A DNA stretch of 51,957 nt from a virus: positions 1-51,957 of IMG/VR virus record IMGVR_UViG_3300044624_000440; one strand, 5' to 3'. The notes below the pieces were generated by a model that was not told where the DNA came from, searched no databases, and saw nothing but the letters and a program-made list of their open reading frames with translations. Below are positions 1-51,946 of the stretch, in pieces (the stretch's first letter is position 1; each line of letters opens with the position of its first letter). The translations under genes and the position numbers were made by a program.

Positions 1-123
1 GAGGCCAAATACAACCCCAACGTCGAGCTGTGCATTGCACTGGGCGAGAAGCTGGACCGTGCCGTGCGTAAGATACAGGACTATCGCTACGACTACGATG
101 TCCAACACTATGACTGCGACTAG
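1..123 (+). CDS. 3' end of an unidentified phage gene (partial)
   Basis: An open frame runs from the first base of the window to a TAG at 121-123 and gives 40 residues ending YDVQHYDCD. The start lies outside the window. The tail is rich in charged and tyrosine residues. I do not recognise a family. It runs in the same direction as the replication block that follows and is separated from it by a 128-base gap with promoter-like and palindromic sequence, so it probably ends an upstream transcription unit. Confidence 0.5.
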   Translation, partial: EAKYNPNVELCIALGEKLDRAVRKIQDYRYDYDVQHYDCD

Positions 124-143
124 CAGCGCATGGCCAAAACCTA

Positions 144-171
144 TTGACTTAGACACTAAACTGTGTTAAAT
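144..171 (+). promoter_or_regulatory. Candidate sigma70-type promoter upstream of the AAA+/VWA cassette
   Basis: TTGACT at 144-149 is followed after 16 bases by TTAAAT at 166-171, with TGTG just before the second hexamer resembling an extended -10. It sits in the 124-251 gap, one of the longest on the + strand, and is placed so that the leader would contain the dyad at 212-229. Read by eye only. Confidence 0.4.
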
Positions 172-205
172 TAAAAAGAAAAAAAGTTCGAGTTTCAGCA
201 AAGGC

Positions 206-238
206 AACCAAGCGTGGCACGTGCCACGCATATCTAAG
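206..238 (+). promoter_or_regulatory. Leader block 1 with an 18-base perfect palindrome
   Basis: The perfect palindrome GCGTGGCACGTGCCACGC fills 212-229, preceded by AACCAA (206-211) and followed by ATATCTAAG. The 33-base block recurs at 2555-2587 with four differences. Both copies end exactly 14 bases before an ATG. It could be a DNA operator for a dimeric regulator or an mRNA hairpin next to the ribosome binding site AAGGAG at 236-241. Confidence 0.7.
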
Positions 239-251
239 GAGTTAGATTACC

Positions 252-1316
252 ATGAGCACAATCAATTTTGGCAAGACCGTTTCGTTCGATGAGACAGTGA
301 ACCTCATTGCGCTATGCCCTGAGCTTAAGGTGCATGTCGAAGGTGAGCCGGGCATTGGAAAGTCTTCCATGTTGCCTGCTATAGCTAAGAAAGCTGGCAT
401 CGACCAATGGCTCTACATCGACGCAACCCAATACTCGACCGGCGACGGCGCAATGCCAGCGGTCAACCACGATACCAAGACATCCAGCTTCTACATCAAC
501 GAGCGGTTCGGCTTCCATACGGGCAAGCCTGTGGTCATATCGGTAGACGAGATGAGCAAGGCCATGCAGTCAGTGCAAAACGAGCTGCATACATTGTTCG
601 AGGAGAAACCCCGCTTCTACGGGTATGACCTGCCAGCGGGTAGCATCGTATACTCATCGGGTAACCTGAGTGGCGATGGCGTGGGCGACAAGACCAAGGA
701 CCACACCATCAACCGGCAGACCCGTGTCCGTCAACGCAAGCCAACTGCGACAGAGTGGATTCACAACTATGCTGTGAATAACGACGTAGAGGGAAGCCTT
801 ATCGCATGGTGCGACAAGAACCCCCAAGCGTTCGCAAGCTATCTGGATGAGGGGCAGGAGGACAATCACCTCATCTTCAACCCGCGCCGTGCGGGTAGGC
901 CGTTCTTCTCACCGCGTTCCGCTGCCAAGGCTAGCCACATCATCAAGCGTCGGCGTGAGATCGGAGCCAACGCCATGACCTGTGCGCTTATCGGCACTAT
1001 CGGTGAGCAAGCAGCGATGGACATAAGTGCGTATATCGAGCACCAGAATGAGCTACCTGCATGGCGCGACATCATCGAAAGTCCGCGTTCGGTCCATGTG
1101 CCAAGCTCTCCGGCTGCCGCGTCTGTGCTTGTGTTTGGTGCAGTGCAGCGGGTGGATGAGAGCAGCATCGACGCTGTGATGCAGTATCTTGAGCGGTTCA
1201 GTGTCAACTGGCAGGCAACCTTCTGCCTCACCCTAGCCAAGTCAGCCAAGCAGAAGATCGGCTTCCGCAACAGCAGCTTCACCAAGTGGGTAGCTGATAA
1301 CCAAGACCTGCTGTGA
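252..1316 (+). CDS. MoxR/CobS-like AAA+ ATPase
   Basis: The 354-residue product has a Walker A GEPGIGKS at residues 31-38 and a Walker B-like VVISVDEM with D99 and E100. This is the layout of MoxR/CobS-type AAA+ ATPases, which remodel protein partners carrying VWA domains. The next gene, 13 bases downstream, encodes exactly such a VWA protein, so the pair probably acts together. The start ATG has AAGGAG at 236-241. Related CobS-like ATPases are known from several groups of tailed phages; cobalt chelation is not implied, as no corrin genes are present. The protein remodelled, if any, is unknown. Confidence 0.8.
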   Translation: MSTINFGKTVSFDETVNLIALCPELKVHVEGEPGIGKSSMLPAIAKKAGIDQWLYIDATQYSTGDGAMPAVNHDTKTSSFYINERFGFHTGKPVVISVDEMSKAMQSVQNELHTLFEEKPRFYGYDLPAGSIVYSSGNLSGDGVGDKTKDHTINRQTRVRQRKPTATEWIHNYAVNNDVEGSLIAWCDKNPQAFASYLDEGQEDNHLIFNPRRAGRPFFSPRSAAKASHIIKRRREIGANAMTCALIGTIGEQAAMDISAYIEHQNELPAWRDIIESPRSVHVPSSPAAASVLVFGAVQRVDESSIDAVMQYLERFSVNWQATFCLTLAKSAKQKIGFRNSSFTKWVADNQDLL

Positions 1317-1329
1317 GAGGGGTAAGCAA

Positions 1330-2556
1330 ATGAACATGGTATCCAAATTCGACACGACTGAGCGTAAGCTCCAACGGGTTAAGATCAACCTGATGCGCGA
1401 CCCGCGATTTGCCTACTGGCGTGGCATCATGATGATCGGCACGACCAGCATCGACGATAACTTTCCTACTGCCTACACCGATGGGTGTAACGAGGTATAT
1501 GGACGGGCGTTCGTTGACTCGCAGGATGACAAGCAGGTGGCGTTCACTGTGCTGCATGAGAACCTGCACAAGATCGGGCGCGACCTGAGCCTATGGGGGA
1601 AGCTCTTTGCCGAGGACCCGCAGCTTGCCAACATGGCATGTGACTACCATCACAACCTGTTGCTTGTGGACATGGACCCGTTGGAAACTGTCATAAGATT
1701 TCCGACTACCCCTGACGGCAAGCGCATGGGCCTGCTCGATGAGCGGTTCCGTAAAATGGACGTGCCCGAAATCTTCCGCATACTTAAGCAGGAGAAGAAG
1801 GACAAGGAAGGCGCGTTCGCACCCAATGGCGATGGCGCGGCAGGCAAGGACAATTTCGACGAGCATGGCTGGGGTGATGCGAAGGCGCGCACCCAAGAAG
1901 AGAGTGACCAGCTAGCCAAGGAGATTGACCATGCCTTGCGTCAAGGTGAGGCGGAGCACCGCAAGGTCAATGGCGATAAGGCTGGCGACTTGGAGCGACA
2001 CTTCTCCGAGATGACCAAGCCCAAGATCGACTGGCGCACAGTGCTGGCTGAGTTCTGGCGGTCTTCATGTGCAGGTGCAGACGACAACACATGGCGTATG
2101 CCCAACCGTCGCTTTGTCGGTATGGATATTCTGCTACCCTCAACGATTTCGCAGCGTGTTGGACGTGGCGTAGTAGGTGTAGACACGTCAGGCTCCATCC
2201 AAAACGCAGAGGTCAACCTCATGCTGTCCGAGGTGGTCTATGTCGCAACCCATGCGCAGCCTGAGAAGCTCGACCTGCTATACTGGGATAGCGCAGTGGC
2301 ACGACATGAGACCTACGACGAGAACAATCTCGACACTCTCGTTACGTCTACCAAACCAGCAGGAGGCGGAGGCACCAGTCCGGCATGTGTCAAACGCTAT
2401 TTGACGCAGCACAAGATCGAGCCTGAGTTCATCATCATGCTGACCGATGGGTATGTGGACAGCTGGCCCGAGTTCGACTGCCCCACATTGTGGGTGGTCA
2501 CAACCAAAAACATAACCGCCCCAACAGGCACGACCATCTACCTCAACCGAGACTAA
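1330..2556 (+). CDS. VWA-domain protein with metallopeptidase-like N-terminal region
   Basis: The 408-residue protein has HENLH at residues 76-80, matching the HExxH zinc-binding pattern of the putative metallopeptidase domain found with VWA-like domains. After a charged, lysine-rich linker (about 150-230) comes a VWA domain with the MIDAS motif DTSGS at 285-289, a downstream GGGGTSP and a LTDGYVD segment. MoxR-type ATPases typically work on VWA partners, and the ATPase gene lies immediately upstream. An upstream AGGGG and AGCAA precede the ATG; a second ATG six bases on is possible. Whether the peptidase-like site is active cannot be judged from sequence alone. Confidence 0.75.
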   Translation: MNMVSKFDTTERKLQRVKINLMRDPRFAYWRGIMMIGTTSIDDNFPTAYTDGCNEVYGRAFVDSQDDKQVAFTVLHENLHKIGRDLSLWGKLFAEDPQLANMACDYHHNLLLVDMDPLETVIRFPTTPDGKRMGLLDERFRKMDVPEIFRILKQEKKDKEGAFAPNGDGAAGKDNFDEHGWGDAKARTQEESDQLAKEIDHALRQGEAEHRKVNGDKAGDLERHFSEMTKPKIDWRTVLAEFWRSSCAGADDNTWRMPNRRFVGMDILLPSTISQRVGRGVVGVDTSGSIQNAEVNLMLSEVVYVATHAQPEKLDLLYWDSAVARHETYDENNLDTLVTSTKPAGGGGTSPACVKRYLTQHKIEPEFIIMLTDGYVDSWPEFDCPTLWVVTTKNITAPTGTTIYLNRD

Positions 2557-2587
2557 CCAACCGTGGCATATGCCACGCATAGCTAAG
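2555..2587 (+). promoter_or_regulatory. Leader block 2 with a 16-base perfect palindrome
   Basis: CGTGGCATATGCCACG at 2562-2577 is a perfect palindrome inside a 33-base block matching 206-238. The two central bases differ between copies (CG at 220-221, TA here), yet both remain palindromic. The block ends 14 bases before the ATG at 2601, the same distance as in copy 1. It separates the VWA gene from the third gene of the cassette. Confidence 0.7.
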
Positions 2588-2600
2588 TAGGAGCAAATCA

Positions 2601-3455
2601 ATGAGCATTTCATCTTCATCAATTCTCGTAGAGCTTAACATCTCTGTATGGACCGCTAACAAGCTGGACAAGCGGATCACCAACGACGTGCTGGTGTCCA
2701 ACGGTGCAACCAAGGCCGATGCTGGGCAATTCCGCAAGAACCTCATGTCCGGTTCAACCCTTCGCAAAGACATTGCTGACTTCGCAGCAAGCTGCCGACT
2801 ATGGCATAACACCATGACGCTGCCTTGGGCTGACCGAGGTCCGCGCCTTCTGCCTACTAGCTTATTCTTTGACTACAAGACTGAGCTTAACAAGCGCAAG
2901 GCGCGGTTCGACCATATGGTAGAGCACTTCGAGCGTGAATATCCGCAGCTATGTGCCGATGCACCTATGCACCTTGGCGCTATGTATGACCCCGCAGATT
3001 ATCCGAGCGTCAATGAGATGCGCAGCAAGTTCGGCTTCCGCACTGTGTTCACCCCGCTGCCTGAGGCTGGCGACTTCCGCTTGGACATTGCCAATGATGA
3101 CTTGGAGCTAATGAAGCAGCAGTATGAGACCGCGCTCAACGAGCGTGTCGGTGAGGCTATGCAGTCGCAGTGGGACAAGCTGCACGACATGGTGGCGCGC
3201 ATGAGTGACAAGCTGGTCGAGCCTGATGGTGACGACAAGCGCCGCTGGCATGATACGTTCATCACCAACGCCCGTGAGATGTGCTCGATGCTTACGCACC
3301 TCAACGTGACCAAAGACCCCAAGCTGGAGGAAGCGCGGCGCAAGCTGGAGCTAGCAGTGCATGGCGTAGACATTGAGGACATCAAGGACGACGCCGTTGT
3401 CCGTGAGGATGTGAAGGAGAAGCTCGATGCCATCCTCAAAGACTATGAGTGGTGA
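2601..3455 (+). CDS. Conserved phage protein of the AAA+/VWA cassette, possibly DUF3150-like
   Basis: This 284-residue acidic, mostly helical protein begins MSISSSSILVELNIS, followed by a WTANKLDKR segment and a central segment with RLLPTS and PADYPSV. Similar proteins sit beside MoxR-like ATPases and VWA proteins in other phages and in mobile elements, where DUF3150 is the usual label; I make that link from memory and tentatively. The C-terminal half (about 170-284) is highly charged and probably coiled coil. It has its own AGGAGCAAA site at 2589-2597 and shares the leader block with the ATPase gene, which suggests common control. Its biochemical role is unknown. Confidence 0.6.
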   Translation: MSISSSSILVELNISVWTANKLDKRITNDVLVSNGATKADAGQFRKNLMSGSTLRKDIADFAASCRLWHNTMTLPWADRGPRLLPTSLFFDYKTELNKRKARFDHMVEHFEREYPQLCADAPMHLGAMYDPADYPSVNEMRSKFGFRTVFTPLPEAGDFRLDIANDDLELMKQQYETALNERVGEAMQSQWDKLHDMVARMSDKLVEPDGDDKRRWHDTFITNAREMCSMLTHLNVTKDPKLEEARRKLELAVHGVDIEDIKDDAVVREDVKEKLDAILKDYEW

Positions 3456-3459
3456 GGGG

Positions 3460-3624
3460 ATGACCATCGACAAGGTGGAGTTGAGGTGGACCGACAGAGG
3501 CAACAAGATGTTCTACGTCTACTACACCCGTGCGGACGGCTCATGCTGGGTAATGCGCCACTGGGCGCGAGATGAGCTGGACGCATACACTATCGCAATA
3601 CGTATCTTAGAAGGAGCAAGCTAA
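3460..3624 (+). CDS. Small conserved hypothetical protein
   Basis: I chose the ATG at 3460, giving 54 residues starting MTIDKVELRW, because GAGGGG lies just before it; an in-frame ATG at 3427 would overlap the previous gene by 29 bases. The product looks like a small beta-rich protein with many aromatics (MFYVYYTRAD, CWVMRHW). The stop overlaps the next start by one base (TAATG), so translation of the two is probably coupled. No family recognised. Confidence 0.5.
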   Translation: MTIDKVELRWTDRGNKMFYVYYTRADGSCWVMRHWARDELDAYTIAIRILEGAS

Positions 3625-4478
3625 TGACTATCGACTATTCCAAATTTACCTACCCCAAGCTGCACAACTACAGCAATGTGGTCAACGAGCTGAAGAAGGA
3701 CCATCAACCCTACCCGTCCGTCGTGCATCCCATGGCGATGCCATTGATCGACAAGCTGGCACTGCGTCACCCCGAGTGGAGTATCGTGGGCTATGAGAGC
3801 ATAAACATGCCGAATGCAGGGGCGTATGTGGTGAAGCGCTTCCGCATATATGACGGGCTGGATGAAGTAGGCACGGTGATGTATTCTAACTGGCGCGACG
3901 AGGATAAGTTCGAGATCAGGAACCCTCGCATATACAAGAGTATGACTAGCCGAGGCTACAAGTCTACCAAGGACGTAGGCAAGGCGCTCAAGATCATCGA
4001 GGAGTTCTTCTCTGCCAAGACCCTTGACGAGCGAGTGATGGAAGCGCGCAGTAGGATCGACTCTGCTATCAATAACGCTGAGTGGAATGCGCGCAGGGCG
4101 TTCGAGAAGACATGGAGCGACCTGACCCCCGCTCTAGCTGCCTATCTGACCCTCAATCTGGATAGGATACGTCCTACGCTAGAAGCGTTTGGCGCACCGG
4201 CTTCCGCTCTCGATGAGATAACCGAGCGCAGCGAGAATAGGAAGATAACCAAGCGTGTCCACACGGCGCACGGCACAGACAAGGGCGTTGCCATCATGCT
4301 GCATGGAGACAGATATGTGGTAGACCGTGGGACTGGCAATGTGGAGACCCTGACACTGTCGCAGCTTAGTGAGGACATGCGCAGCAAGCTAGGTGTGCTC
4401 AAGATGGTAGAAGACGGGCAGGTCATCGACGACTTTGGTATACGCGTCAATCCGACCACATTCTACCTGCTACCGTAA
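3624..4478 (+). CDS. Hypothetical phage protein
   Basis: The 284-residue product starts at an ATG preceded by AGGAGCAAG (3612-3620) that also overlaps the upstream stop. The N-terminal half (about 1-130) looks like a mixed alpha/beta fold, followed by a helical, charged stretch around 135-210 and a beta-rich C-terminus ending NPTTFYLLP. No catalytic motif is visible. It is the last gene before a gap with a promoter-like element at 4484, so it probably closes the first early transcription unit. Function unknown. Confidence 0.55.
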   Translation: MTIDYSKFTYPKLHNYSNVVNELKKDHQPYPSVVHPMAMPLIDKLALRHPEWSIVGYESINMPNAGAYVVKRFRIYDGLDEVGTVMYSNWRDEDKFEIRNPRIYKSMTSRGYKSTKDVGKALKIIEEFFSAKTLDERVMEARSRIDSAINNAEWNARRAFEKTWSDLTPALAAYLTLNLDRIRPTLEAFGAPASALDEITERSENRKITKRVHTAHGTDKGVAIMLHGDRYVVDRGTGNVETLTLSQLSEDMRSKLGVLKMVEDGQVIDDFGIRVNPTTFYLLP

Positions 4479-4483
4479 CACCC

Positions 4484-4498
4484 TTGACAAAGTATAAT
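4484..4498 (+). promoter_or_regulatory. Promoter-like element with closely spaced hexamers, copy 1
   Basis: TTGACAAAGTATAAT holds a perfect -35-like hexamer (4484-4489) and a perfect -10-like hexamer (4493-4498) only three bases apart. The same arrangement occurs at 13431-13445. Both copies lie in the short gaps that open a new gene group. A normal 17-base spacing would put the -10 near 4507, where only a weak TAATTC is seen. Confidence 0.45.
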
Positions 4499-4532
4499 GG
4501 GAATGTAATTCTTATCGCCAAGGAGCAAACAT

Positions 4533-4880
4533 ATGGCAAAGACCCCCGAGAAGGTCGTCAAAGATAAGGTTGTGTCTATCCTCAAAGCAGAGGGCGCATA
4601 CTACTTTTTTCCGGCGACACATGGATATGGACGCAGTGGCGTCCCTGATATCGTAGCCTGTGTAAACGGGCAGTTTCTAGCTATCGAGTGTAAGGCTGGG
4701 AACAACAAGCTCACCGCACTGCAAGAGCGAGAGCTTACGGGCATAATCAACGCCAAGGGCGTTGCGGTAATCATCAATGAGGAGAACTGGGGGACTGTGC
4801 CTGCCCTAGTGCAATGGCTGAAGTCGGGAACTGTCATGAAGGGAGATGGGTTTGTGCATAAGTTGAAGGGGCAACCATGA
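4533..4880 (+). CDS. VRR-NUC domain nuclease
   Basis: The 115-residue protein has the compact PD-(D/E)XK core of VRR-NUC nucleases: a GVPD segment with D39, then E52 and K54 in IECKAG, and Q64 shortly after. Members cut branched or recombination DNA structures, and phages use them in replication, recombination or packaging. It starts at an ATG with AGGAGCAAAC at 4521-4530, directly after the promoter-like element at 4484-4498. The length is typical of stand-alone phage VRR-NUC proteins. Substrate is not deducible. Confidence 0.85.
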   Translation: MAKTPEKVVKDKVVSILKAEGAYYFFPATHGYGRSGVPDIVACVNGQFLAIECKAGNNKLTALQERELTGIINAKGVAVIINEENWGTVPALVQWLKSGTVMKGDGFVHKLKGQP

Positions 4881-5098
4881 TAAACGCAATAGTCGAGATG
4901 GATATCCTCAAGGAAGCCGCTGATGCTCTGCAGGAGCATGACAAGCGGAAGCAGGCAGTAAGGGAGTCGGACGAGGTGCTTCGTGCCCTGTGCCGACGCT
5001 GGGGCGAGGCCGCTGGCCTATGGGGTGTTTCACCTACGCACCTACGCAGAGCATGTGAGGCGCGAGGTCTGTTGAACGAAGGAGCAACTGATGTCTGA
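4877..5098 (+). CDS. Small helical hypothetical protein
   Basis: The 73-residue product starts at an ATG overlapping the VRR-NUC stop (ATGA), so the two are probably coupled. It is charged and helical; the C-terminal part (about 40-68, with WGVSPTHLRRACEARG) has the look of a small helix-turn-helix, but I cannot assign a family. It overlaps the next gene by eight bases. Confidence 0.5.
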   Translation: MINAIVEMDILKEAADALQEHDKRKQAVRESDEVLRALCRRWGEAAGLWGVSPTHLRRACEARGLLNEGATDV

Positions 5099-5441
5099 CT
5101 TTGTTGAGTGGAACCCGAAGCATCACGGCCACAAGCCATTGCACTGGACGCCTGATATGCTGACTAGCGTAGACGGTAAGAACTTCGTGCGCCAGCCAAG
5201 CTGGGCATGGATCGCTGGCTCGACCTACTACGTGCCACATGAGGCTGTGGGAATGGTGCGCGATGCGTCCCCTAAGATCATTACCACGGAAACACCACCC
5301 GACGATTGGATTTTGCTCAAAGCTGCGGAGCTGAGTGACACATGGTGCCGCAGCGTTGAATGGCTACGCGAGTTATATCAGGCTAGTGGCTCGTTCCGCG
5401 CCCTCTGCGACATGATCCAGAAATACGAGAAGCAACCATGA
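5091..5441 (+). CDS. Hypothetical phage protein
   Basis: The 116-residue product has AGGAGCAAC at 5080-5088 before its ATG. It is rich in tryptophan (HWTPDM, SWAWIAG, DDWILL, DTWCRS) and histidine near the N-terminus. No catalytic motif is recognised. It overlaps neighbours on both sides by a few bases (8 upstream, 4 downstream), in a chain of coupled small genes between the nuclease and the DNA polymerase. Confidence 0.5.
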   Translation: MSDFVEWNPKHHGHKPLHWTPDMLTSVDGKNFVRQPSWAWIAGSTYYVPHEAVGMVRDASPKIITTETPPDDWILLKAAELSDTWCRSVEWLRELYQASGSFRALCDMIQKYEKQP

Positions 5442-5668
5442 GTGACTACGGCGACCAGTGCCGAGAACTGCGCGATGCGAAGCGGGAGAGCCGTGCAAAA
5501 TACGGTGAGCCTTGTCCGGTATGCCTAAAGAAATTGCCGAAAGCTAACCCGTCTATTCTGCTACCGCAGCAGGTCTGCAAAATTCACAAATACCGAGACC
5601 CGCGCCCTTATGATTACGCAAAAACTATGTGGGGCGTAGCTGGTTACGAGAGGGAAAAGCGACCATGA
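5438..5668 (+). CDS. Small putative zinc-binding protein
   Basis: The 76-residue protein has CPVC at residues 26-29 and a CKIH segment about 20 residues later, a pattern that could bind a zinc ion (recombination endonuclease VII-like and zinc-ribbon proteins look similar, but there is too little sequence to choose). Its ATG overlaps the upstream stop (ATGA) and its own stop overlaps the next start. Role unknown. Confidence 0.5.
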   Translation: MSDYGDQCRELRDAKRESRAKYGEPCPVCLKKLPKANPSILLPQQVCKIHKYRDPRPYDYAKTMWGVAGYEREKRP

Positions 5669-5742
5669 CCCTGCGGCAATTCCTCTGGGATAATTTTGGT
5701 TTCGACATCTACGAATGGGACGAGGGTGACCTGCGGTTCTAG
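5665..5742 (+). CDS. 25-residue mini-gene before the DNA polymerase
   Basis: ATG at 5665 overlaps the upstream TGA (ATGA), and the frame runs 25 codons (MTLRQFLWDNFGFD, then IYEWDEGDLRF) to TAG at 5740-5742. The stop abuts the polymerase ribosome binding site AGGAGCAAAC at 5741-5750. Without it there would be an 82-base gap in an otherwise tightly packed operon. It could be a real microprotein or mainly a translational coupler. Confidence 0.4.
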   Translation: MTLRQFLWDNFGFDIYEWDEGDLRF

Positions 5743-5750
5743 GAGCAAAC

Positions 5751-7568
5751 ATGAATATAATAACAATCGACTTCGAGACCTTTTACGACCGAGCCTTCTC
5801 GCTCTCCAAGGTAACTACCGAAGAATATATCCGCGACGATCTGTTTGAGGTTATCGGCGTAGCCGTAAAGGTGAATGACGGGGAGACCCAATGGTTCTCC
5901 GGCACCAAGATGCAAACCAAACGGTGGCTGGAGCAGTTCGACTGGGATAACAGCGTAGCTGTAGCTCACAATGCCATGTTCGACATGGCCATCCTTAACT
6001 GGATTTTTGGTATCCGGCCCAAGCGCATTGCGGACACCCTGTCCATGCTGCGCGCCATCGACGGACCTGATGCAGGTAATAGCCTAGCCAAGGCAGCCGA
6101 GCGCTATGGGCTGGGCAAGAAGGGCGACGAGGTTATCAATGCGCTGGGCAAAGGGCGACTGGACTTCACACCGGAAGAGCTACACCGCTACGGCCAGTAC
6201 TGCGTCAATGACGTACAGTTGACCTATGAGCTATTCAAGCAGCTAGCGAAGGGCTTCCCCCTCATAGAGCTACGTCTGATCGACCTGACCATCCGCATGT
6301 TCACGGAACCCGTGCTTGAGTTGGACAAGGACGCGCTTGAGAACCACCTGCTCGACGTGCAGATGAAAAAAGAGGCGCTCATGGCCAAGCTCAACTACGA
6401 GAAGGCCGACCTGATGAGCAACCCCAAGCTGGCTTCACTGCTTGAGTTCCACGGAGTCGCGGTGCCGATGAAGCTCAGCCCTGCAACGGGTAAGGAGACC
6501 CATGCCTTCGCCAAGAATGATGAGGCGTTCAAGGAGTTGTTGGAGCATGAAAACTCACAGGTGCAAGCTATCGTCGCTGCACGGCTAGGCGTTAAGTCTA
6601 CGCTAGAAGAGACAAGGACAGAGAGATTCATCCAGATTGCTGACCGGGGACCATTACCGATACCCCTACGCTACTATGCGGCACACACTGGACGCTGGGG
6701 TGGTGACGATAAGGTCAACATGCAGAACCTACCGCGCAAGTCACCACTGAAGAAAGCAGTCCGCGCACCGCATGGATATGTGTTCATCGACTGTGATAGC
6801 AGTCAGATCGAAGCGCGCACCTTGGCGTGGCTGGCTGGGCAGGATGACCTTGTTGCTGCCTTCGATGCCGGTGAGGACGTGTATAAGATCATGGCTTCTG
6901 CCATCTATGGCGTCCCTGTCGAGGAGGTGACAGACGACCAGCGGTTTGTTGGTAAGACTACCATCCTAGGTGCAGGCTATGGCATGGGGCCAGCCAAGTT
7001 CAAAGCACAGTTGAAAAACTTCGGTGTCGATATGGACCTAGAAGAGTGCACCCGCATCATCTTCGTATACCGCGCTACATATCCCAAGATACCTGCACTG
7101 TGGCGGCAGGCAGGGGAGGCTCTCAAAGCTATAGTTAGCAACCAGACCGCACCACTAGGTCGGGAGGGAGTGCTGACGGTGCGCGGTAGAGCCGGTATAT
7201 ACCTACCCAATGGCCTGAGGCTCCAATACCCCAACCTACGCTGGGTGAACAGGGGCGGTAAGCAAGAGATGGTCTACGACCAGAAGAAGGGTCGGGCTGT
7301 CCTCGATAGCCGCATCTACGGCGGTAAGCTGGTCGAGAATATCTGCCAAGCCTTGGCGCGTATTGTGATCGGTGAGCAGATGCTCAAGATCGCCAAGAAG
7401 CTACGTGTGGTGATGACGGTGCACGATGCCGTGGGCGCTATCGCGCTCGTAGAACAGGCCGATAAGGCACGGGCGTATGTCGAAGCCTGCATGCGGGTCA
7501 GACCAGAGTGGGCGGCAGGGTTGCCGCTGAATTGTGAGAGCAAAATAGGAGCAAGTTATGGCGGATGA
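5751..7568 (+). CDS. polA: Family A DNA polymerase with 3'-5' exonuclease domain
   Basis: The 605-residue enzyme is a replicative phage polymerase. The proofreading exonuclease is shown by D7-F-E9 (Exo I), AHNAMFDMAILN (Exo II) and YCVNDVQLTYE (Exo III). The polymerase domain has motif A with D347 and D349 in DCDSSQIEAR, motif B R398-x3-K402-x7-Y410, and motif C VHDA with D559. The residue matching E. coli Pol I Phe762 is Leu406, and the glutamate usually following HD in motif C is Ala560. There is no 5'-3' exonuclease domain. AGGAGCAAAC precedes the ATG and the 3' end overlaps the next gene by 11 bases. Confidence 0.95.
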   Translation: MNIITIDFETFYDRAFSLSKVTTEEYIRDDLFEVIGVAVKVNDGETQWFSGTKMQTKRWLEQFDWDNSVAVAHNAMFDMAILNWIFGIRPKRIADTLSMLRAIDGPDAGNSLAKAAERYGLGKKGDEVINALGKGRLDFTPEELHRYGQYCVNDVQLTYELFKQLAKGFPLIELRLIDLTIRMFTEPVLELDKDALENHLLDVQMKKEALMAKLNYEKADLMSNPKLASLLEFHGVAVPMKLSPATGKETHAFAKNDEAFKELLEHENSQVQAIVAARLGVKSTLEETRTERFIQIADRGPLPIPLRYYAAHTGRWGGDDKVNMQNLPRKSPLKKAVRAPHGYVFIDCDSSQIEARTLAWLAGQDDLVAAFDAGEDVYKIMASAIYGVPVEEVTDDQRFVGKTTILGAGYGMGPAKFKAQLKNFGVDMDLEECTRIIFVYRATYPKIPALWRQAGEALKAIVSNQTAPLGREGVLTVRGRAGIYLPNGLRLQYPNLRWVNRGGKQEMVYDQKKGRAVLDSRIYGGKLVENICQALARIVIGEQMLKIAKKLRVVMTVHDAVGAIALVEQADKARAYVEACMRVRPEWAAGLPLNCESKIGASYGG

Positions 7569-7932
7569 AGTTACACGCGAGACGCTGATTAAAGACCTGA
7601 AAGCCTCGGTGCGCGTCATCAATGCGCTACTGAACGCATACCCACTACCCGAAGGGCTGAACCGGAGCCTTACCGTAGGTGATGTCTTAGACGTTTCTGA
7701 TCTTGAACTGATACGGGTTCCAAATTTTGGGAGATTCTCATTAGCCGAATGGAAACGTCTGACCGCCCATTTGCGTGAGGGGTATACCGAAGCAGGCAGA
7801 GAACTGAGCGAAGAGTACATCGCCCTCAGACGCGTAAGAGCAATCTTGAACACTGTCGGCGGTACCCACAAAAATCTCGCCCGTCTTTACGAAGAACTGG
7901 CGGAGATCGTACTGCCCTTCGAGCGGACATAG
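7558..7932 (+). CDS. Small protein with RNA polymerase alpha-CTD-like domain
   Basis: Residues about 17-70 of this 124-residue protein resemble the C-terminal domain of the bacterial RNA polymerase alpha subunit. R19 and N22 match E. coli R265 and N268, TVGDVL (39-44) matches the IGDLV segment, and PNFGRFSLAE (55-64) matches PNLGKKSLTE (293-302). Those residues form the helix-hairpin-helix surface that binds the upstream promoter minor groove. K298 is replaced by F60, and the loop before TVGD is eight residues longer. The C-terminal half is a charged helix. It could redirect host transcription or simply bind DNA. AGGAGCAAG precedes the ATG, which lies inside the polymerase gene. Confidence 0.65.
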   Translation: MADEVTRETLIKDLKASVRVINALLNAYPLPEGLNRSLTVGDVLDVSDLELIRVPNFGRFSLAEWKRLTAHLREGYTEAGRELSEEYIALRRVRAILNTVGGTHKNLARLYEELAEIVLPFERT

Positions 7933-7941
7933 GAGCAAGTT

Positions 7942-8394
7942 ATGACTAATGAAATACACCCAGTGGTCGAGTTGCTGATCGCCCGAATGGAAAGCCACCC
8001 CGAGGAGTTTAAGGACGACTACCTGATGTCAGAGGTGAGTCCTGCAAATGGTTCTGGTCGTTGGCTTCGCGCCACCCAAGCTATTCAAGATCATGGTTCG
8101 AAGCGAGACGTAGAAGCGCTCAACGCCGCGCTTTCAAAAATATACATGCAGTACATCCATGAATGGACGATGGACGAGCTACTCAACGGCGAGGATCGTC
8201 GGCGCGAAGAGGAAGAGAGAAAGAAGCAGTTGTGGCAGCAACAACAGCAGCAGCTGTACCAGCAAGCGTATCAGCAATCACCGCACATACGGGCAGGTAC
8301 TACAGGGCTGCAAAACACAGCCGCCGCCACGACTGGCCTACAGCTAGGCGAAGACTCACTGATGCAACAAATTAGAAAGAGGTTAATCAAATGA
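7942..8394 (+). CDS. Hypothetical protein with glutamine-rich tract
   Basis: The 150-residue product has a helical, charged N-terminal region (about 1-85), a basic stretch with RRREEEERKK, a glutamine run encoded largely by CAG/CAA codons around 8230-8280, and a pair of TTGLQ motifs around residues 120-133. The tract suggests a flexible linker or oligomerising segment. AGGAGCAAG at 7931-7939 precedes the ATG; the stop overlaps the next start (ATGA). No known family recognised. Confidence 0.5.
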   Translation: MTNEIHPVVELLIARMESHPEEFKDDYLMSEVSPANGSGRWLRATQAIQDHGSKRDVEALNAALSKIYMQYIHEWTMDELLNGEDRRREEEERKKQLWQQQQQQLYQQAYQQSPHIRAGTTGLQNTAAATTGLQLGEDSLMQQIRKRLIK

Positions 8395-8987
8395 GCGAAT
8401 ATCAATTTACCAAAGACTGGTTCGGCTGGGCACCGCCCGTGTGGGAGCAGCTTATCCCTATGCTATCGGGCGAAGCCGGTAAGCGTAACTTCCTAGAAAT
8501 CGGTTCCTTCGAAGGCCGCAGCACCGTCTGGACCATGGAGAACATGATGCAGAAGGGCGACTACATCTACTGCATCGACACATGGGAAGGCGGCGAGGAG
8601 CACGGTGCAGAGGATATGCAGGCTGTGTTCGAGCGGTTCAAAGCCAACACCGCTATCGCCAAGGATAAGACAAAGGTGGTTCGGGGGTACGCCATGGACA
8701 CTTCCACTACTGAGCTAGCCAGTAAAATCCAAGACGGCTTCCAGTATGACTTCATCTACATCGACGGATCGCACATCGCCAAGGACGTGCTGACCGATGC
8801 GTGTATGGCTTGGCAGGTGCTCAAGCCCAAGGGGATCATAGTGTTTGACGATTATGTGTGGGGTGACCCGCGTGACATCCTGCACCGTCCGAAGGCAGCA
8901 ATCGACGCCTTCACCAATATCTTTGCCGAGGAGGTAGAGATCATCCATGTTGGTTATCAACTGGTGGTACGCAAGAAGGGAGAGTGA
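8391..8987 (+). CDS. Class I SAM-dependent methyltransferase
   Basis: The 198-residue protein has motif I FLEIGSFEGRS (E36, G38), an acidic motif II in IYCIDTW, a central YDFIYIDGSH and GIIVFDDY, as in Methyltransf_24-type small-molecule or O-methyltransferases. Such enzymes transfer a methyl group from S-adenosylmethionine. In phages they often sit near glycosyltransferases, as here (9330-10100), so modification of a glycan or small molecule is plausible, but the substrate is not visible. There is no DNA-methyltransferase catalytic motif (no NPPY or PC motif). It starts in the upstream stop (ATGA). Confidence 0.8.
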   Translation: MSEYQFTKDWFGWAPPVWEQLIPMLSGEAGKRNFLEIGSFEGRSTVWTMENMMQKGDYIYCIDTWEGGEEHGAEDMQAVFERFKANTAIAKDKTKVVRGYAMDTSTTELASKIQDGFQYDFIYIDGSHIAKDVLTDACMAWQVLKPKGIIVFDDYVWGDPRDILHRPKAAIDAFTNIFAEEVEIIHVGYQLVVRKKGE

Positions 8988-9329: not shown

Positions 9330-10100
9330 ATGACCGATGAAATCAAAGTGGCCACAAAACGCCCTAAGATGATGATCGCTACCCCCATGTACGGGGGTAT
9401 GTGCACGGGCATGTATGTGCTTGGCCTTCTCAACACTATGAACACCATGCGTGAACTGGGTGTCGAGGTGCGCTGGGCGCATATGACCAACGAGAGTCTT
9501 ATCACTCGTGCTCGTAACGAGCTAGCCCGTGCGTTTCTGGAAACAGATTGCGACTACCTCATGTTTATTGACGCCGATATCGGCTTCGATGGCAGAGCTA
9601 TTCCGACCCTCATGGCGGTGGATGACGATATCGTATGCGGTATCTACCCCAAGAAAGAGGTGAACTGGGAGAGCGTCAAGCGCGCAGCCAAGGCTGGCAA
9701 GGACGACCTACAGGATCATGGCGGTGCGTTCGTGTTCAACATGATAAACGAGCGTCATGCCGAGACGGACGAGCGTGGGGTTATCGAGGTGCGCCATGGT
9801 GGCACTGGTTTCATGCTTATTAAACGTGGGGTGTTCGAGCATCTGATGCCCCACGTACCTACCTATCGGGTGTCATCGTTCATCAAGCCCGATGGCGAGT
9901 ATGAGAAACCACTGACTTATGAGTTCTTCGCTACCAGCATAGACGAGACTGGTGCGCTGCTATCGGAGGACTACCACTTTTGCGAACTGTTTCGCAAACA
10001 CGGGGGGAAGATATACGCCCACCCCTTCGTGAAATTGGACCATGTTGGGACCTACGTCTACAACGGGGACATCCTAAAATCGGGCGGCAATCTCAAGTAA
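9330..10100 (+). CDS. Glycosyltransferase, GT-A fold (early copy)
   Basis: The 256-residue protein has a GT-A type core: an N-terminal MMIATPMYGG strand-loop, a RARNELA helix at 60-66, and the metal/nucleotide-sugar DxD motif D81-A-D83 in LMFIDADIGFD. A second, acidic LLSEDYHFCELF segment and DHVG near the C-terminus match the downstream metal-binding part of the fold. The enzyme should transfer a sugar from a nucleotide donor; the acceptor (phage DNA base, virion protein or cell envelope) is not shown. A paralogue is encoded at 51209-51946 on the other strand with R60 and the DxD at the same residue numbers. Confidence 0.8.
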   Translation: MTDEIKVATKRPKMMIATPMYGGMCTGMYVLGLLNTMNTMRELGVEVRWAHMTNESLITRARNELARAFLETDCDYLMFIDADIGFDGRAIPTLMAVDDDIVCGIYPKKEVNWESVKRAAKAGKDDLQDHGGAFVFNMINERHAETDERGVIEVRHGGTGFMLIKRGVFEHLMPHVPTYRVSSFIKPDGEYEKPLTYEFFATSIDETGALLSEDYHFCELFRKHGGKIYAHPFVKLDHVGTYVYNGDILKSGGNLK

Positions 10101-11580: not shown

Positions 11581-11888
11581 TGCCGTACAAAGACCCTAAA
11601 GACCGTAAGTACACGGGTGCTCCCGCTGCGTACCAAGCGCAGCCAGAGCAGAAGAAGAACCGTGCAGCGCGCAACGCAGCCCGAGCCAAGATGATGAAGG
11701 CTGGCAAGGTCAAGAAGGGTGACGGCAAGGACGTGGCGCACAAGGTCGCCTTCGACAAGGGCGGCTCTAACAAACACGGGACCCGCATAGAGAGTGCGTC
11801 GGCCAACCGGTCCTTTGCTAGGGATAGCAAGCGCAACCTAGTGTCTGAGACGAGCAAGCGGGAGCGTAAAAAGCGTGGAGATCGTTGA
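11580..11888 (+). CDS. Small basic protein, degenerate HNH-like
   Basis: I use the ATG at 11580, overlapping the upstream TGA, for 102 residues beginning MPYKDPKDRKYTG. The protein is lysine/arginine rich (NRAARNAARAKMMKAG) and has GKDVAHK, FDKGGSNKHGTR and NRSFARD, which resembles the H-N-N arrangement of small phage HNH-like proteins, but without the cysteine pairs and with A where many have D before the H. It may bind DNA without cutting. It sits between the nuclease and helicase genes and overlaps the latter by 14 bases. Confidence 0.5.
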   Translation: MPYKDPKDRKYTGAPAAYQAQPEQKKNRAARNAARAKMMKAGKVKKGDGKDVAHKVAFDKGGSNKHGTRIESASANRSFARDSKRNLVSETSKRERKKRGDR

Positions 11889-13434
11889 GAACAGAGCATT
11901 GCTCTTCGAGACAGAAGACCCAAGACTAATTACCGACATCATCGAAAAGAGTGCGGTAGTTGCAAACGATAGGAGCAAATACAAAGTGTTAGTTAGATGG
12001 GGGCTAGAGGAAGCCCAAACCCTTGCGCGACTTGAGCACAAGGACACACCCTCACCGATCCTACGGGATTACAAATGGACAGGTAAGCTCACACCGTTCG
12101 AGCACCAGAAGACCACAGCGTCATTCCTATCACTGCGCAAGCGCGCGTTCTGCTTCAACGAGCAGGGTACGGGTAAGACGGCCAGTGTCATCTGGGCAGC
12201 CGACTACCTCATGAAGCAAGGGCTGGTGAAGCGAGTGCTGGTGCTGTGCCCCCTGTCGATCATGAAGTCGGCGTGGCAGCAAGACCTGTTCAAGTTCGCC
12301 ATGCACCGCTCATGCGGCGTGGCACATGGTACGGCTACGCAGCGCGCTGCGGTCGTCAACAGCGGAGCCGAGTTCGTCGTCATCAATTTCGACGGTCTCT
12401 CGGTTATCAAAGACCAGATCACAAGCGGTGGCTTTGACCTGATCGTGGTGGATGAGGCTAACGCCTACAAGAACCCACAGACCAACCGCTGGAAGGTGCT
12501 CAATGAGTTGGTCAAGACGAATGATCCTCGGCTATGGATGCTTACTGGTACGCCAGCAGCCCAATCACCTCTGGATGCGTTCGGTCTCGCCAAGCTGGTG
12601 AACCCAGACAAGTCTCCAAAATACTACAGCTACTTCCGTGCTGACACCATGTATCAGCTGACGAAGTTCAAGTGGGTGCCCAAGCCAACCGCACCGGAGT
12701 ATGTGCACAACGTCCTGCAACCGGCGATCCGGTTCGAGAAGAAGGACTGCCTCGACCTACCAGAGGTCACCTACATGGACCGCGAAGCGCCGCTCACCCC
12801 GCAGCAAGCAAAATATTATAAGCAGCTGGCCAGTGAGTTGCTTGTCGAAGCTGATGGGGAGGAGATCAGTGCGGTCAACGCAGCGGTCAAGATCAACAAG
12901 CTCCTGCAGATCAGCGGAGGTGCGGCCTATTCGGATACTGGAGAAGTCATAGAGTTCGATGTGTCCAACCGCCTCAACACGGTGCTGGAAGTCATTGAGG
13001 AGGCTAGCAACAAGGTGCTGGTCTTCGTGCCATTCACCCACACCATCGAGCTTCTACGTACCAAGCTAGAGAAAGAGGGCATCACCTGTGGTGTCATCAA
13101 CGGCAAGGTGTCGGTCAATAAGCGCAGTGAGCTTGTCGATAAGTTCCAGACGGACAAAGACCCTCATGTGCTTATCATCCAGCCACAGGCAGCCAGCCAT
13201 GGGCTTACACTTACGGCAGCAGATACAATCATATGGTATGCGCCGGTCCCATCGGTGGAGACCTACCTACAGGCGAACGCCCGTATCAACCGTCCCGGCC
13301 AGAAGAACGCCATGACCGTCGTGCACATCAAGGGGAGCGAGGTCGAGGGCAGGCTATACTCGTTGCTGCGCAGCAACATCAACAACCATGAGCGCATCAT
13401 CGACCTGTACAGGGACCTGCTGAATACCCCTTGA
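11875..13434 (+). CDS. SNF2-family DNA helicase/translocase
   Basis: The 519-residue protein has the SNF2 motor: FEHQ (Q motif), Walker A NEQGTGKT from residue 95, a DEAN box at 193-196 (DEAH in many relatives), LTGTPAAQSP (motif III), and in the second RecA lobe SHGLTLT and QANARINRPGQ (motifs V and VI). It would use ATP to move on duplex DNA and remodel forks or protein-DNA complexes. The GTG at 11875 is used as start because the N-terminal segment (NRALLFETEDP, PSPI, WTGKLTPF) is conserved in phage relatives. An in-frame GTG at 11986 with AGGAGCAAA just before it is an alternative. Confidence 0.9.
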   Translation: MEIVENRALLFETEDPRLITDIIEKSAVVANDRSKYKVLVRWGLEEAQTLARLEHKDTPSPILRDYKWTGKLTPFEHQKTTASFLSLRKRAFCFNEQGTGKTASVIWAADYLMKQGLVKRVLVLCPLSIMKSAWQQDLFKFAMHRSCGVAHGTATQRAAVVNSGAEFVVINFDGLSVIKDQITSGGFDLIVVDEANAYKNPQTNRWKVLNELVKTNDPRLWMLTGTPAAQSPLDAFGLAKLVNPDKSPKYYSYFRADTMYQLTKFKWVPKPTAPEYVHNVLQPAIRFEKKDCLDLPEVTYMDREAPLTPQQAKYYKQLASELLVEADGEEISAVNAAVKINKLLQISGGAAYSDTGEVIEFDVSNRLNTVLEVIEEASNKVLVFVPFTHTIELLRTKLEKEGITCGVINGKVSVNKRSELVDKFQTDKDPHVLIIQPQAASHGLTLTAADTIIWYAPVPSVETYLQANARINRPGQKNAMTVVHIKGSEVEGRLYSLLRSNINNHERIIDLYRDLLNTP

Positions 13435-18169: not shown

Positions 18170-18201
18170 CCCCCGACTGCTCACTCAGTCGGGGGTTTTT
18201 T
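18170..18201 (+). terminator. Intrinsic terminator between convergent blocks
   Basis: CCCCCGACTG (18170-18179) pairs perfectly with CAGTCGGGGG (18186-18195) around a six-base loop and is followed by six T residues. This fits a strong rho-independent terminator for the + strand operon. The T run overlaps the stop codon of the - strand gene (18200-18202). On the - strand the hairpin lacks a following U run, so it would end only + strand transcription efficiently. Confidence 0.9.
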
Positions 18202-21200
18202 AATCCCTACCGATGGTCTTATCCGCGTAGTAGGACTCGACCTCGTTCAGCCCCATGCCTTGGATATCGTACTTCGCCTCCGACGCAGCGCCGGTCAGGG
18301 ACTTATAGACATTGGCGTAGGTGATACCAAAATACGGATTCCCGACTTTCTTGTTGTAATCCATAATATCCTTGAGCGCCTTCTGGGCTTCTTCTCGCCC
18401 ATCTGCATCACCGTTCTGGAAGCGGCGCACAGCGCGTTTATAGGCACCGAGCAGGTCGCTCTTCTCGTCCTGCAGTTCATTTTTCCGGTTGAGGATATCG
18501 CGGTTTTCTTGCTGCACCTTGGCAACCTGTGTCGGGTTGAAGCCTAGCATTGCACCGATAATCTCAGCGTTACTCATCTCTTCGTTCGCCAGTTTGATCT
18601 TCTCAGTCTGGGTGCGTACGCCCTCGGTTTCCAGTCGATAGGCTTTCAACGGTGCTTTGAGCATCGCAGGCAGGCCGAGTTCGAGGCCCTTGAGTACGTT
18701 ACCTTTGGCAATCTCTTCACCCATGGTGACTACGTTGAGCGAAGCAGACGCACCGGGAATGTTTTCCACCAGCGCATTATTGATCGTCTGGGTCCACGTA
18801 TCGGCATCCTTCGGTGCACGGAACCACATGCCGACTAGGTCGAGCGACACGCGAGAGCCAAAGTTCCAACCGGTTGCCTCTGACACAGCGCCGTTGAGGA
18901 TGATGTCGCCCAACGTGATTTTCTTGCCCTTATCATCGGTCACCATAGGCTGGCCGAAGTGCTCAGGCAGCCACTCATAGCGGAACTGCATCTCGACACT
19001 ATCCGCAGTAATCGGGTTCTGCCTCATTCGCTCCCTGCGGTCCTCGTCGTCATCCGTCATGTCCTGCAGTGCTTGAAGCGTCATCATGCCGAGCGAGTAA
19101 AGCGGAAGCGCAACGACACCACCCATCATGAACGACATGCCCAAGACGCCTGTCATTTCCTTCATAGCCGCAACACGCTCGGCACGGGGTGTATCCTTGC
19201 CGAAGATAGCCCGTGTGCTCTGCACGAAGAAGCGCGTGGTAATAACGGAGTACTGCTTGAAGAGGAACAGCGCCCGCGCAAGCTCACTGCCCTTCATGAT
19301 AGGGGGCCGGTTGAGGTTGGTATAGTTGCCGAGCGTGTAGTTCACCGTGTCCTTGGCGGCGATGATAGCCTTGGTCTGTCGCTCTTCAGGAGACAGCCCT
19401 GCGCTGCCCAGCTTATCATACTCAAGGTCATAGGCAGCCATGAACGCCACCTCGCGCGTCAGCTGCTCCGATGTGTCGAACAGATACGTCATAGCATCAT
19501 ATGCTTTCTGACGGACTTCCGAGATACGCCCTTCCGTTGCTGTCTGCGGAGTGCGTTCCTGACCCATAGTAAATTCAGACAGCGGTATGATAAGCCCATA
19601 CTCATCTGTCGCGCGAACCAGCGCATCCCGATGCCGCTTGCTGTTCTTGACGATGTTCGACTCCAAAAGCGTCGGGATACGGAACGTCTTGCGCGCCCCC
19701 TTCGATTTACTCTCACGCTTAGGAAGGTTGCTAAACACGTTCATATACCGGCCCATGGCACGGGTGGTCGCAGCCATGCCATATTTGCCCCATAGATTAG
19801 GAGCTACGCGGATAGGCAGTGCAGTGACCTGCACAAGCGCAGTTGCAGGCGCAGTGAGGAACGCGATGTAAGCCAGCTGGTTCATCCAAGGGACGATCTT
19901 GTTGACAAACCCGTCAGGCGCTGGCTCCATTTCCCCGTTGATGCGCTCTTGGATGCTGTTGATGAACTCACGCGCAATCACTCTTTGGTTCGGCTCTAGG
20001 CTTTCCATGGCGGAGGTAGCGGCGCTGATTGCCCGGTCAATGTCAGGTGCAAACTGCAGGCGCGCAGCATCCGTCGCATACTCCTCAGCCGTTACGCCTA
20101 CTGTGCGCAGGATATCTGAACTCCAACCAAGGCGGTTCTTCGACTTGATGAACTGCTTGCGGCCAGACCCTTCCGGAGTGCTTTGCAGATACAGCTGGTA
20201 GATGTCCGCACGAAGCCGGGTCTTCTTACCTTCGGTGAACGTGTCTGGGTTAAGATCGGAGATCATTTTCAACGTCTTAACGAGCGCATCACCTGCGTCG
20301 AAGTCAGCGCCTAGGTCTTTCTGGGCGTCGTTGCCGTAATCAACATCCTTGTTGTTGTTGATATCCAGCCCGAACTCTTCCGCAGCTGCTTCTAGGTCAG
20401 CGTCACGCTCGTCCGCAGTCTCGTAGAACTTCAGGATAGGCTCACCAAACTTGGTGCTTTTGATGCGCAGCCAATAGTCGCCGTAGCGGCGCTTTGGGAA
20501 ATACTCCCGGTGGAACAGGCCCAACGGAACCTCAGGATAGTCCTTATGCGCATCCTCTTTGGCAGGTGCGTTTACCTTATCATTAAGGCGCTCCTGCTCT
20601 GCTCGTATAGATACCATCAACTGGGAAATGACATCCTCAGCTACACCCGCATCTCGTAGAGCCTCGATCCGCTTGTCCATAAAGAACTGCCGTGCGGTCT
20701 GCATATCGCGGTTCATATTGCGGATACGCGTGTAGAGCTTACGCCCTTCCTTCCCGAGCTTGCTCAGAATACGCATCGCACCGTCGATATCGGCTTCACG
20801 CTGCTTCCGCTTGTCTTCGTAATCCTTCTTCGTCTTGGCATCCAGCGAAGGGTTTTGAAGTAGCTTGTTATACCGACGCCAAATCTGATCGGACTTGAAC
20901 GCATTCTCGCGTGACGTCACCTCCATGAGTTTGACCATGTCGATATTGTAGTAGTTGCCATGGTCCATAGCGACGGGAAGTGCTTTCAGCTTTTTACCGC
21001 CGACCACGATGGGGTCCGCATTGCTGAGCAGATACTCTTTAAGGTCGCCCACCATCTTATTGAGTGTACGACGCGTAGTGGCGCGACTACCATTCATCCT
21101 GTCCGCAATGTCGATTGCGTTGCGTAGTTCCCGGGTGATCGGCGTATCGCCTAGCATCGTCTCCATAAGGTCAAGCGCACCGTCTGTCGGCATTGCTTTG

Positions 21201-51209: not shown

Positions 51210-51946
51210 TATGCGGCATCCTTCTGCGGGGGTACAATCATCGGATACAAGACGTCAGGGCCGAAATGGCCTTCATATTCCTGCACACCCATGTGCCCAA
51301 GTTTAATGGTAGGGTCGATCCAGACCTCGAACCCATGTTCGCGGACCCGGTCACAGAAGAGGAAATCCTCTCCGATATACCCCTCATCGGTTTTCATGAA
51401 ATCGAACATGCACGGCACAGTGCGCTTCGTGCGTTCGTCGTAGTAGCGCCACTCAGGGTGAGCGGCATCCAGAGTCTCGAACACGTCTCGACGGACCATC
51501 ATGAAGGCTGTGGCTACGCGCTGGGCACGGACAAGGCCCATGGCGTTCATCGTAAGCTCTTCATTTTCGTCGTAGTCGAGGGTGGCGATATATACCTTAG
51601 CAGTGCTGCGCGTGCGCGGCACACCTGCAACGATCCCCTTCTTGGGATCAGTGGTCCATGCCATGAGCCGAAAAATGTCCTCAGGCTCAAAGTTGATGTC
51701 AGAGTCGATGAACATGAGGTCCGTACAGTCGGAATCCAGCATGTCCTGCGCAAGCAGGTTCCGCGCACGGGAGACAACAGAGCAGCCGCAAATGCTACCA
51801 ATCTGAATGTCAATCCCGTGCTGCGGAGCAGCTTGGGCAAAACGAGCAAGCGAAACCGCCAGCTTCAAGGATACCTTAAAGTCGTACGCCGGAAGCGCAA
51901 TAAATACGCTGCGTCCGGTTAAATCATAACCTTTTTCGTTCTGCAT
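51209..51946 (-). CDS. Glycosyltransferase, GT-A fold (late copy)
   Basis: The 245-residue protein has FIALPAYD, a SVVSRARNLLAQ helix with R60, the DxD motif D81-S-D83 in LMFIDSDINFE, and EDFLFCDRV plus KLGHMG in the second half. It is a paralogue of the early glycosyltransferase at 9330-10100: residues 60-86 align without gaps. Here it starts the visible part of the late block, so it may act on virion proteins. AGGTGG precedes the ATG. Confidence 0.8.
   Translation of the reverse strand: MQNEKGYDLTGRSVFIALPAYDFKVSLKLAVSLARFAQAAPQHGIDIQIGSICGCSVVSRARNLLAQDMLDSDCTDLMFIDSDINFEPEDIFRLMAWTTDPKKGIVAGVPRTRSTAKVYIATLDYDENEELTMNAMGLVRAQRVATAFMMVRRDVFETLDAAHPEWRYYDERTKRTVPCMFDFMKTDEGYIGEDFLFCDRVREHGFEVWIDPTIKLGHMGVQEYEGHFGPDVLYPMIVPPQKDAA

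Follow-up and report, generated by a model that had tools for sequence, protein, structure and literature searches.

The gene at positions 7558–7932 of the window (the whole 51,957-nt stretch of viral DNA analysed, IMG/VR record IMGVR_UViG_3300044624_000440) encodes a free C-terminal domain of the RNA polymerase alpha subunit (alpha-CTD), without the N-terminal domain (alpha-NTD) needed for building it into polymerase, as shown by its sequence, by fold prediction and by the lack of an alpha-NTD in the record. The best explanation as a whole, which the evidence slightly favours, is that a dimer of this free alpha-CTD shifts the docking of host RNA polymerase at promoters. The gene starts inside the end of the gene for a family A DNA polymerase (5751–7568), overlapping its final codons, and the features of the region are as follows.

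5751–7568, plus strand: family A DNA polymerase, 605 aa; adjoins the alpha-CTD gene upstream with an overlap and is its conserved synteny partner (PF00476, E = 2e-32; phrog_17)
7547–7551, plus strand: AGGAG ribosome-binding site of the alpha-CTD gene, within the end of the polymerase gene (sequence)
7558–7932, plus strand: free alpha-CTD gene, 124 aa, ATG start (PF03118, AlphaFold2, Foldseek against the PDB, pN/pS)
7576–7773, plus strand: predicted helix-hairpin-helix domain of the alpha-CTD, residues 7–72 (Pfam, alignment, AlphaFold2, Foldseek)
7639–7671, plus strand: loop extended by 8 residues, between helix 18–27 and helix 40–44 (alignment A2, AlphaFold2 secondary structure)
7789–7923, plus strand: long C-terminal helix, residues 78–122, probable coiled coil (AlphaFold2, heptad test)
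7942–8394, plus strand: downstream neighbour, 150 aa, kept in several relatives (no strong Pfam or PHROG match; synteny)
8391–8987, plus strand: methyltransferase-like neighbour (Methyltransf_24), kept in the block (Pfam, synteny)

The 124-aa product matches PF03118 (RNA_pol_A_CTD) over residues 7–64 with 27.0 bits (E = 3.8e-6), above the curated Pfam gathering score of 23.8 bits; its second-best Pfam match is at chance level (0.15), and the generic helix-hairpin-helix model HHH_5 (PF14520) finds no match in it. NCBIfam RpoA models match it weakly and only within the CTD. Its best PDB match (phmmer, E = 0.0019) is an alpha-CTD entry, 9zum, in which the Caulobacter domain is bound on A/T-rich DNA. 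No PHROGs family was found for the protein, and a tblastn search against phages returned chance matches to phage 27 O/CII and nothing else. The alpha N-terminal assembly domain PF01000 is absent from the ORF and from the whole record (13 of 14 control genomes were positive), and it was not found in seven records tested; PF00940 (single-subunit RNA polymerase) gave no match either, nor did it in the control genomes. The preliminary description had presented the product as an untethered mimic of alpha-CTD. The relationship is borne out by the Pfam cut-off and the predicted structure, and the untethered state by the lack of PF01000 in the record; the likeness stands, but 'homologue' is a better word than 'mimic', since the protein is a member of the alpha-CTD family without the rest of RpoA.

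AlphaFold2 returned a confident model when supplied with a 43-row alignment (pLDDT 85.6), though the more canonical alpha-CTDs in this alignment, helpful as they were, may have biased the model toward their fold. The deep alignment was needed because the 3-row alignment of close relatives did not yield a confident model (pLDDT 45). Helices are predicted at residues 18–27, 40–44, 48–52 and 59–72, followed by one long helix at 78–122. In the Foldseek comparison with the PDB, every one of ranks 1–27 is an entry for alpha-CTD or for RNA polymerase (probability 0.91–1.00), with E-values that are weak (0.06–0.9) because the domain, of ~60 residues, is small. They include structures of alpha-CTD on UP/-35 DNA together with sigma region 4 (3n97), with CAP and DNA (1lb2), with Spx (1z3e) and with CII (8igr), as well as 9zum with its A/T-rich DNA. 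The comparison with alpha-CTD that had been proposed as a check on the fold thus returned the helix-hairpin-helix CTD, which the 124-aa protein is predicted to adopt.

The numbering of E. coli alpha-CTD and the role of its '265 determinant' in DNA contact are established. Six counterparts of E. coli residues had been proposed, namely R19, N22, N56, G58, S61 and E64 for R265, N268, N294, G296, S299 and E302, and the alignment confirms all of them, as well as the Phe (F60) at the equivalent of K298. Local spacing is also as previously described, being equal to that of E. coli except in the R265–G279 interval, where 14 positions in E. coli stand against 22 here; the reported loop, longer by eight residues, is therefore real. 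K298 is a DNA contact in E. coli alpha-CTD, and the Pfam family definition does not require it. The position is occupied by K in the nine other clade members, F60 being specific to the window's phage; the scan patterns fixed G279-D280 and N294-[LF]-G296-[KR]-K298-S299, and conservation at fixed positions is uninformative. R265 was absent from the search pattern and is nevertheless invariant in the phage homologues (43/43, alignment A2), so the residue matches are not due to chance. E or D occupies the E302 position in 42/43 and N the N268 position in 29/43; the latter is not strictly conserved in the window's clade (N in six, H in two, Y in two).

Three close relatives of the protein are present in IMG/VR, and two DNA-pattern scans plus an alignment-based scan revealed a free alpha-CTD in dozens of different phage ORFs; a second viral scan, from alignment A1 with N-terminal patterns, found no further relatives. 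Its members are widely distributed among viral contigs, many relatives being contig fragments. PF03118 matches every member of alignment A2 (43/43), HHH_5 reaching E ≤ 0.01 in only 6/43. The identity of a generic helix-hairpin-helix protein was rejected because all 43 homologues and the PDB matches are alpha-CTDs. Salmonella and Acinetobacter 'phage' records with rpoA (INPHARED) look like bacterial contamination and were not counted as evidence. Records OR851339, AFYI01000003, AGRM01000003, CAKLQH020000003 and CAKLQF020000004, filed as phage, carry an ordinary-looking bacterial rpoA and are probably contamination. In Nitrobacter and Xanthobacteraceae contigs (L060:421-1374 and L061:5296-6474), a T5orf172-like domain is followed by two tandem alpha-CTDs; to judge from its sequence, this product is a bacterial multi-alpha-CTD protein.

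The Nei-Gojobori pN/pS of the alpha-CTD gene is 0.33–0.36 when the window is compared with the two relatives nearest to it, and 0.26–0.52 among other pairs of relatives. Identity to the window is mostly 70–79% for the polymerases and 39–63% for the alpha-CTDs. These values indicate that the gene is under purifying selection, yet diverging faster than its neighbours. The order polA, alpha-CTD, homologue of the 7942 gene, methyltransferase, glycosyltransferase-like gene is kept in four relatives (L002, L003, L025 and L031), and the same polA–alpha-CTD block occurs with losses, replacements or on partial contigs in four others (L010, L027, L041 and L066). In phages of the L047 type, the polymerase is related (51%) and the alpha-CTD is near-canonical; as the two genes lie 6 kb apart they may be independent acquisitions, and the pair was not used as evidence of descent. 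The window's polymerase is nearest to those of Rhizobium and Pseudomonas phages, the few bacterial-genome matches are all alphaproteobacterial, and a proteobacterial host is our guess.

Other observations concern the surroundings of the gene. An identical 16-nt start context, ATAGGAGCAAGTTATG, precedes two consecutive genes (positions 7545–7560 and 7930–7945). A promoter scan of window positions 1–8500 found sigma-70 promoter-like sites no more often than expected by chance. Farther along, an SNF2-type helicase (11875–13434, plus strand) is kept in the window's clade, and the glycosyltransferase-like family phrog_1574 has two copies, one per arm (9330–10100, plus strand, and 51209–51946, minus strand). 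A 2229-aa protein (18200–24889, minus strand) has a DarB-like antirestriction match (phrog_10089, E = 1.7e-40) and is likely a polyvalent injected protein.

The long C-terminal helix carries a heptad core (L90, V93, L97, V100, H104, L107, Y111, L114 and V118) which reads L, I/V/L/M, I/L, I/V, H, L, Y, L and I/V in nine clade members, and is thus nearly unchanged though the proteins are only ~40% identical between the two halves of the clade. A heptad test on nine relatives, taking the best of seven phases, gave a shuffle P of 0.008. From the predicted helix and the conserved heptads, the segment probably pairs two copies into a coiled-coil dimer of alpha-CTDs; alternatively it may pack intramolecularly instead of dimerising. 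In five other free alpha-CTD proteins from phages (L022, L038, L040, L042 and L076), a long N-terminal region of helical or coiled-coil appearance takes the place of the C-terminal helix, which suggests that alpha-CTDs may have become dimeric on more than one occasion.

The best functional clue for the free alpha-CTD is its association with sigma region 4. Three phage proteins (L056, L058 and L093) are fusions of Sigma70_r4 with alpha-CTD in which both domains score above the cut-off, and a weaker HTH is found on the same chain in L099/L100. Further cases come from the clade of the window itself. In the polA block of L066, a protein with XRE and Sigma70_r4 domains (57.1 bits) lies two genes, or 0.3 kb, downstream of the alpha-CTD gene. 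The slot between polA and alpha-CTD is occupied by a sigma region-4-like gene in L024 (24.0 bits for the ORF and 26.4 when the genome was searched, against a cut-off of 24.1) and by a short gene of this kind in L003/L072 (19.4–19.7 bits, below the same cut-off). Nine records have a genomic match above the cut-off, and in six of them it lies on the same strand and no more than 2 kb away, as against 1.2 expected (P ~0.0003). This clustering is modest once fused cases are removed (P = 0.02–0.08); leaving out the fusions and one redundant record, three were observed and 0.9 expected (P = 0.04). In the window's record, the 124-aa protein included, Sigma70_r4 (PF04545) has no match at E ≤ 0.001, and the search there for a sigma partner found no recognisable candidate; nor is one recognisable in most clade members, on (partial) contigs. 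Three otherwise different phages, each also with a free alpha-CTD, contain a family of proteins (L066:6680-7297, L012:3322-4446 and L023:7250-7867) with a shared N-terminus, XRE-like in L066, and sigma region 4, without a match to sigma region 2.

In the cellular holoenzyme, the promoter DNA read by alpha-CTD adjoins that read by sigma region 4 (cf. 3n97), and the association therefore points to transcription. Together with the spread of the family, it speaks for a function in transcription rather than in replication or as a generic helix-hairpin-helix protein. A homologue in Bacillus phage Goe8, annotated 'RNA polymerase subunit alpha', lies within the first 2.6 kb of the genome, a region in which related Bacillus phages keep takeover genes. 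The coiled-coil dimer would grip A/T-rich minor-groove DNA upstream of promoters through its R265-N268-N294-G296-S299 surface and, once on DNA, would alter the docking of host RNA polymerase, sigma region 4 or host activators. Host UP elements and activators might thereby be occupied by the phage alpha-CTD, or phage promoters might be marked for the host enzyme; in related phages, the sigma region-4-like HTH, adjoining or fused, may share the task. The earlier suggestion, that a free module could bind DNA and either compete for UP elements or redirect the host enzyme, is plausible on this reading of the sequence, and the phage probably uses the protein to steer host transcription. The earlier description mentioned neither the long C-terminal helix nor the wide family in other phages nor the link to sigma region 4. 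Several findings weigh against the preferred reading: the Phe at K298, the loose conservation of N268 in the clade, a Lys at the sigma-contact residue E261 of the 124-aa protein, the lack of a recognisable sigma region-4 partner in the window and in most clade members, and the chance-level outcome of the promoter scan. A broader proposal, which we put forward only tentatively, is that phages of many kinds possess, as a dispersed kit, just those parts of the host holoenzyme that read upstream promoter DNA. These would be free alpha-CTD and sigma region-4 modules, adjacent or fused and without alpha-NTD, which would build alternative -35/UP recognition at phage promoters and re-aim host RNA polymerase, the coiled-coil alpha-CTD of the window being one version.

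Of the rival explanations, the one that survives best, though we consider it unlikely, is a protein decoy: the chief targets of the free domain would be host activators or sigma region 4, its binding to them would inhibit host transcription, and DNA binding would be secondary. An untethered copy could be dominant-negative, alpha-CTD docks many activators (as in 1lb2, 1z3e and 8igr), and alpha is an established takeover target, since T4 modifies it at R265 with Alt and ModA (PMC2988021) and phiKMV-like phages cleave it with Rac (PMC7552054). However, the activator-contact position 287 and the sigma-contact positions 259/261 vary across homologues, whereas the DNA-contact residue R265 is invariant.

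Somewhat less probable again is a replication accessory, i.e. a helix-hairpin-helix DNA-binding module that helps the family A DNA polymerase to hold DNA. Many proteins of replication and repair contain helix-hairpin-helix domains, the start of the gene overlaps the polymerase gene and the closeness of polA and alpha-CTD is kept clade-wide; this adjacency counts against the transcription role, as it could mean a role in replication. On the other hand, the match is specific to alpha-CTD and not to generic helix-hairpin-helix, many homologues occur in other phages without a polymerase of the window's type alongside, some are fused to sigma region 4, and even where polA is close a sigma region-4-like gene can intervene (L024, L003). 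A captured fragment of host rpoA without function was already disfavoured and is very improbable: phage copies in L005, L008 and L047 are indeed very near canonical rpoA, WPP tail included, but the pN/pS range of 0.26–0.52, the conserved heptads, the conserved gene order and the distinctive C-terminal helix speak against it. Least probable of all is a spare R265-bearing domain that absorbs enzymes, from the host or from competing phages, by which alpha is modified or cleaved, an idea drawn from R265 being the ADP-ribosylation site of T4 Alt and ModA (PMC2988021), since such an enzyme was not seen in the window and the sigma region-4 fusions would be left unexplained.

The alpha-CTD is a main control handle of bacterial RNA polymerase. 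If the preferred reading, a free dimer that shifts polymerase docking, is true, a phage-encoded untethered alpha-CTD, dimerised or linked to sigma region 4, would represent a directly testable route of takeover and would reveal the workings of a polymerase domain once it is detached. Free alpha-CTD phage proteins are already known as database annotations, among which the window's protein is a variant; ORF 40 of Erythrobacter phage vB_EliS-L02 has been named as such (PMC9127768). A functional study of these proteins was not found in the open-access literature and may exist elsewhere.

With bacterial RpoA, the window's protein has in common the domain family (PF03118), the predicted fold and the residues R265, N268, N294, G296, S299 and E302; it differs in having neither alpha-NTD nor linker, in its 8-residue longer loop, in the Phe at K298 and in the added 45-residue C-terminal helix. 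ORF 40 of vB_EliS-L02 and QDP42789 of Goe8 are likewise free or mostly free alpha-CTDs in phage genomes, but their identity to the window's protein is low, their tails are different and they are known as annotations only. The fusions of L056, L058 and L093 contain an alpha-CTD module of the same family, but with a sigma region-4 HTH on the chain that is absent from the window's protein. Finally, sigma appropriation by T4 AsiA/MotA and alpha modification by Alt/ModA aim at the same upstream-promoter parts, sigma region 4 and R265 of alpha-CTD, with proteins that are unrelated to that of the window; here, the phage itself supplies the polymerase domain.
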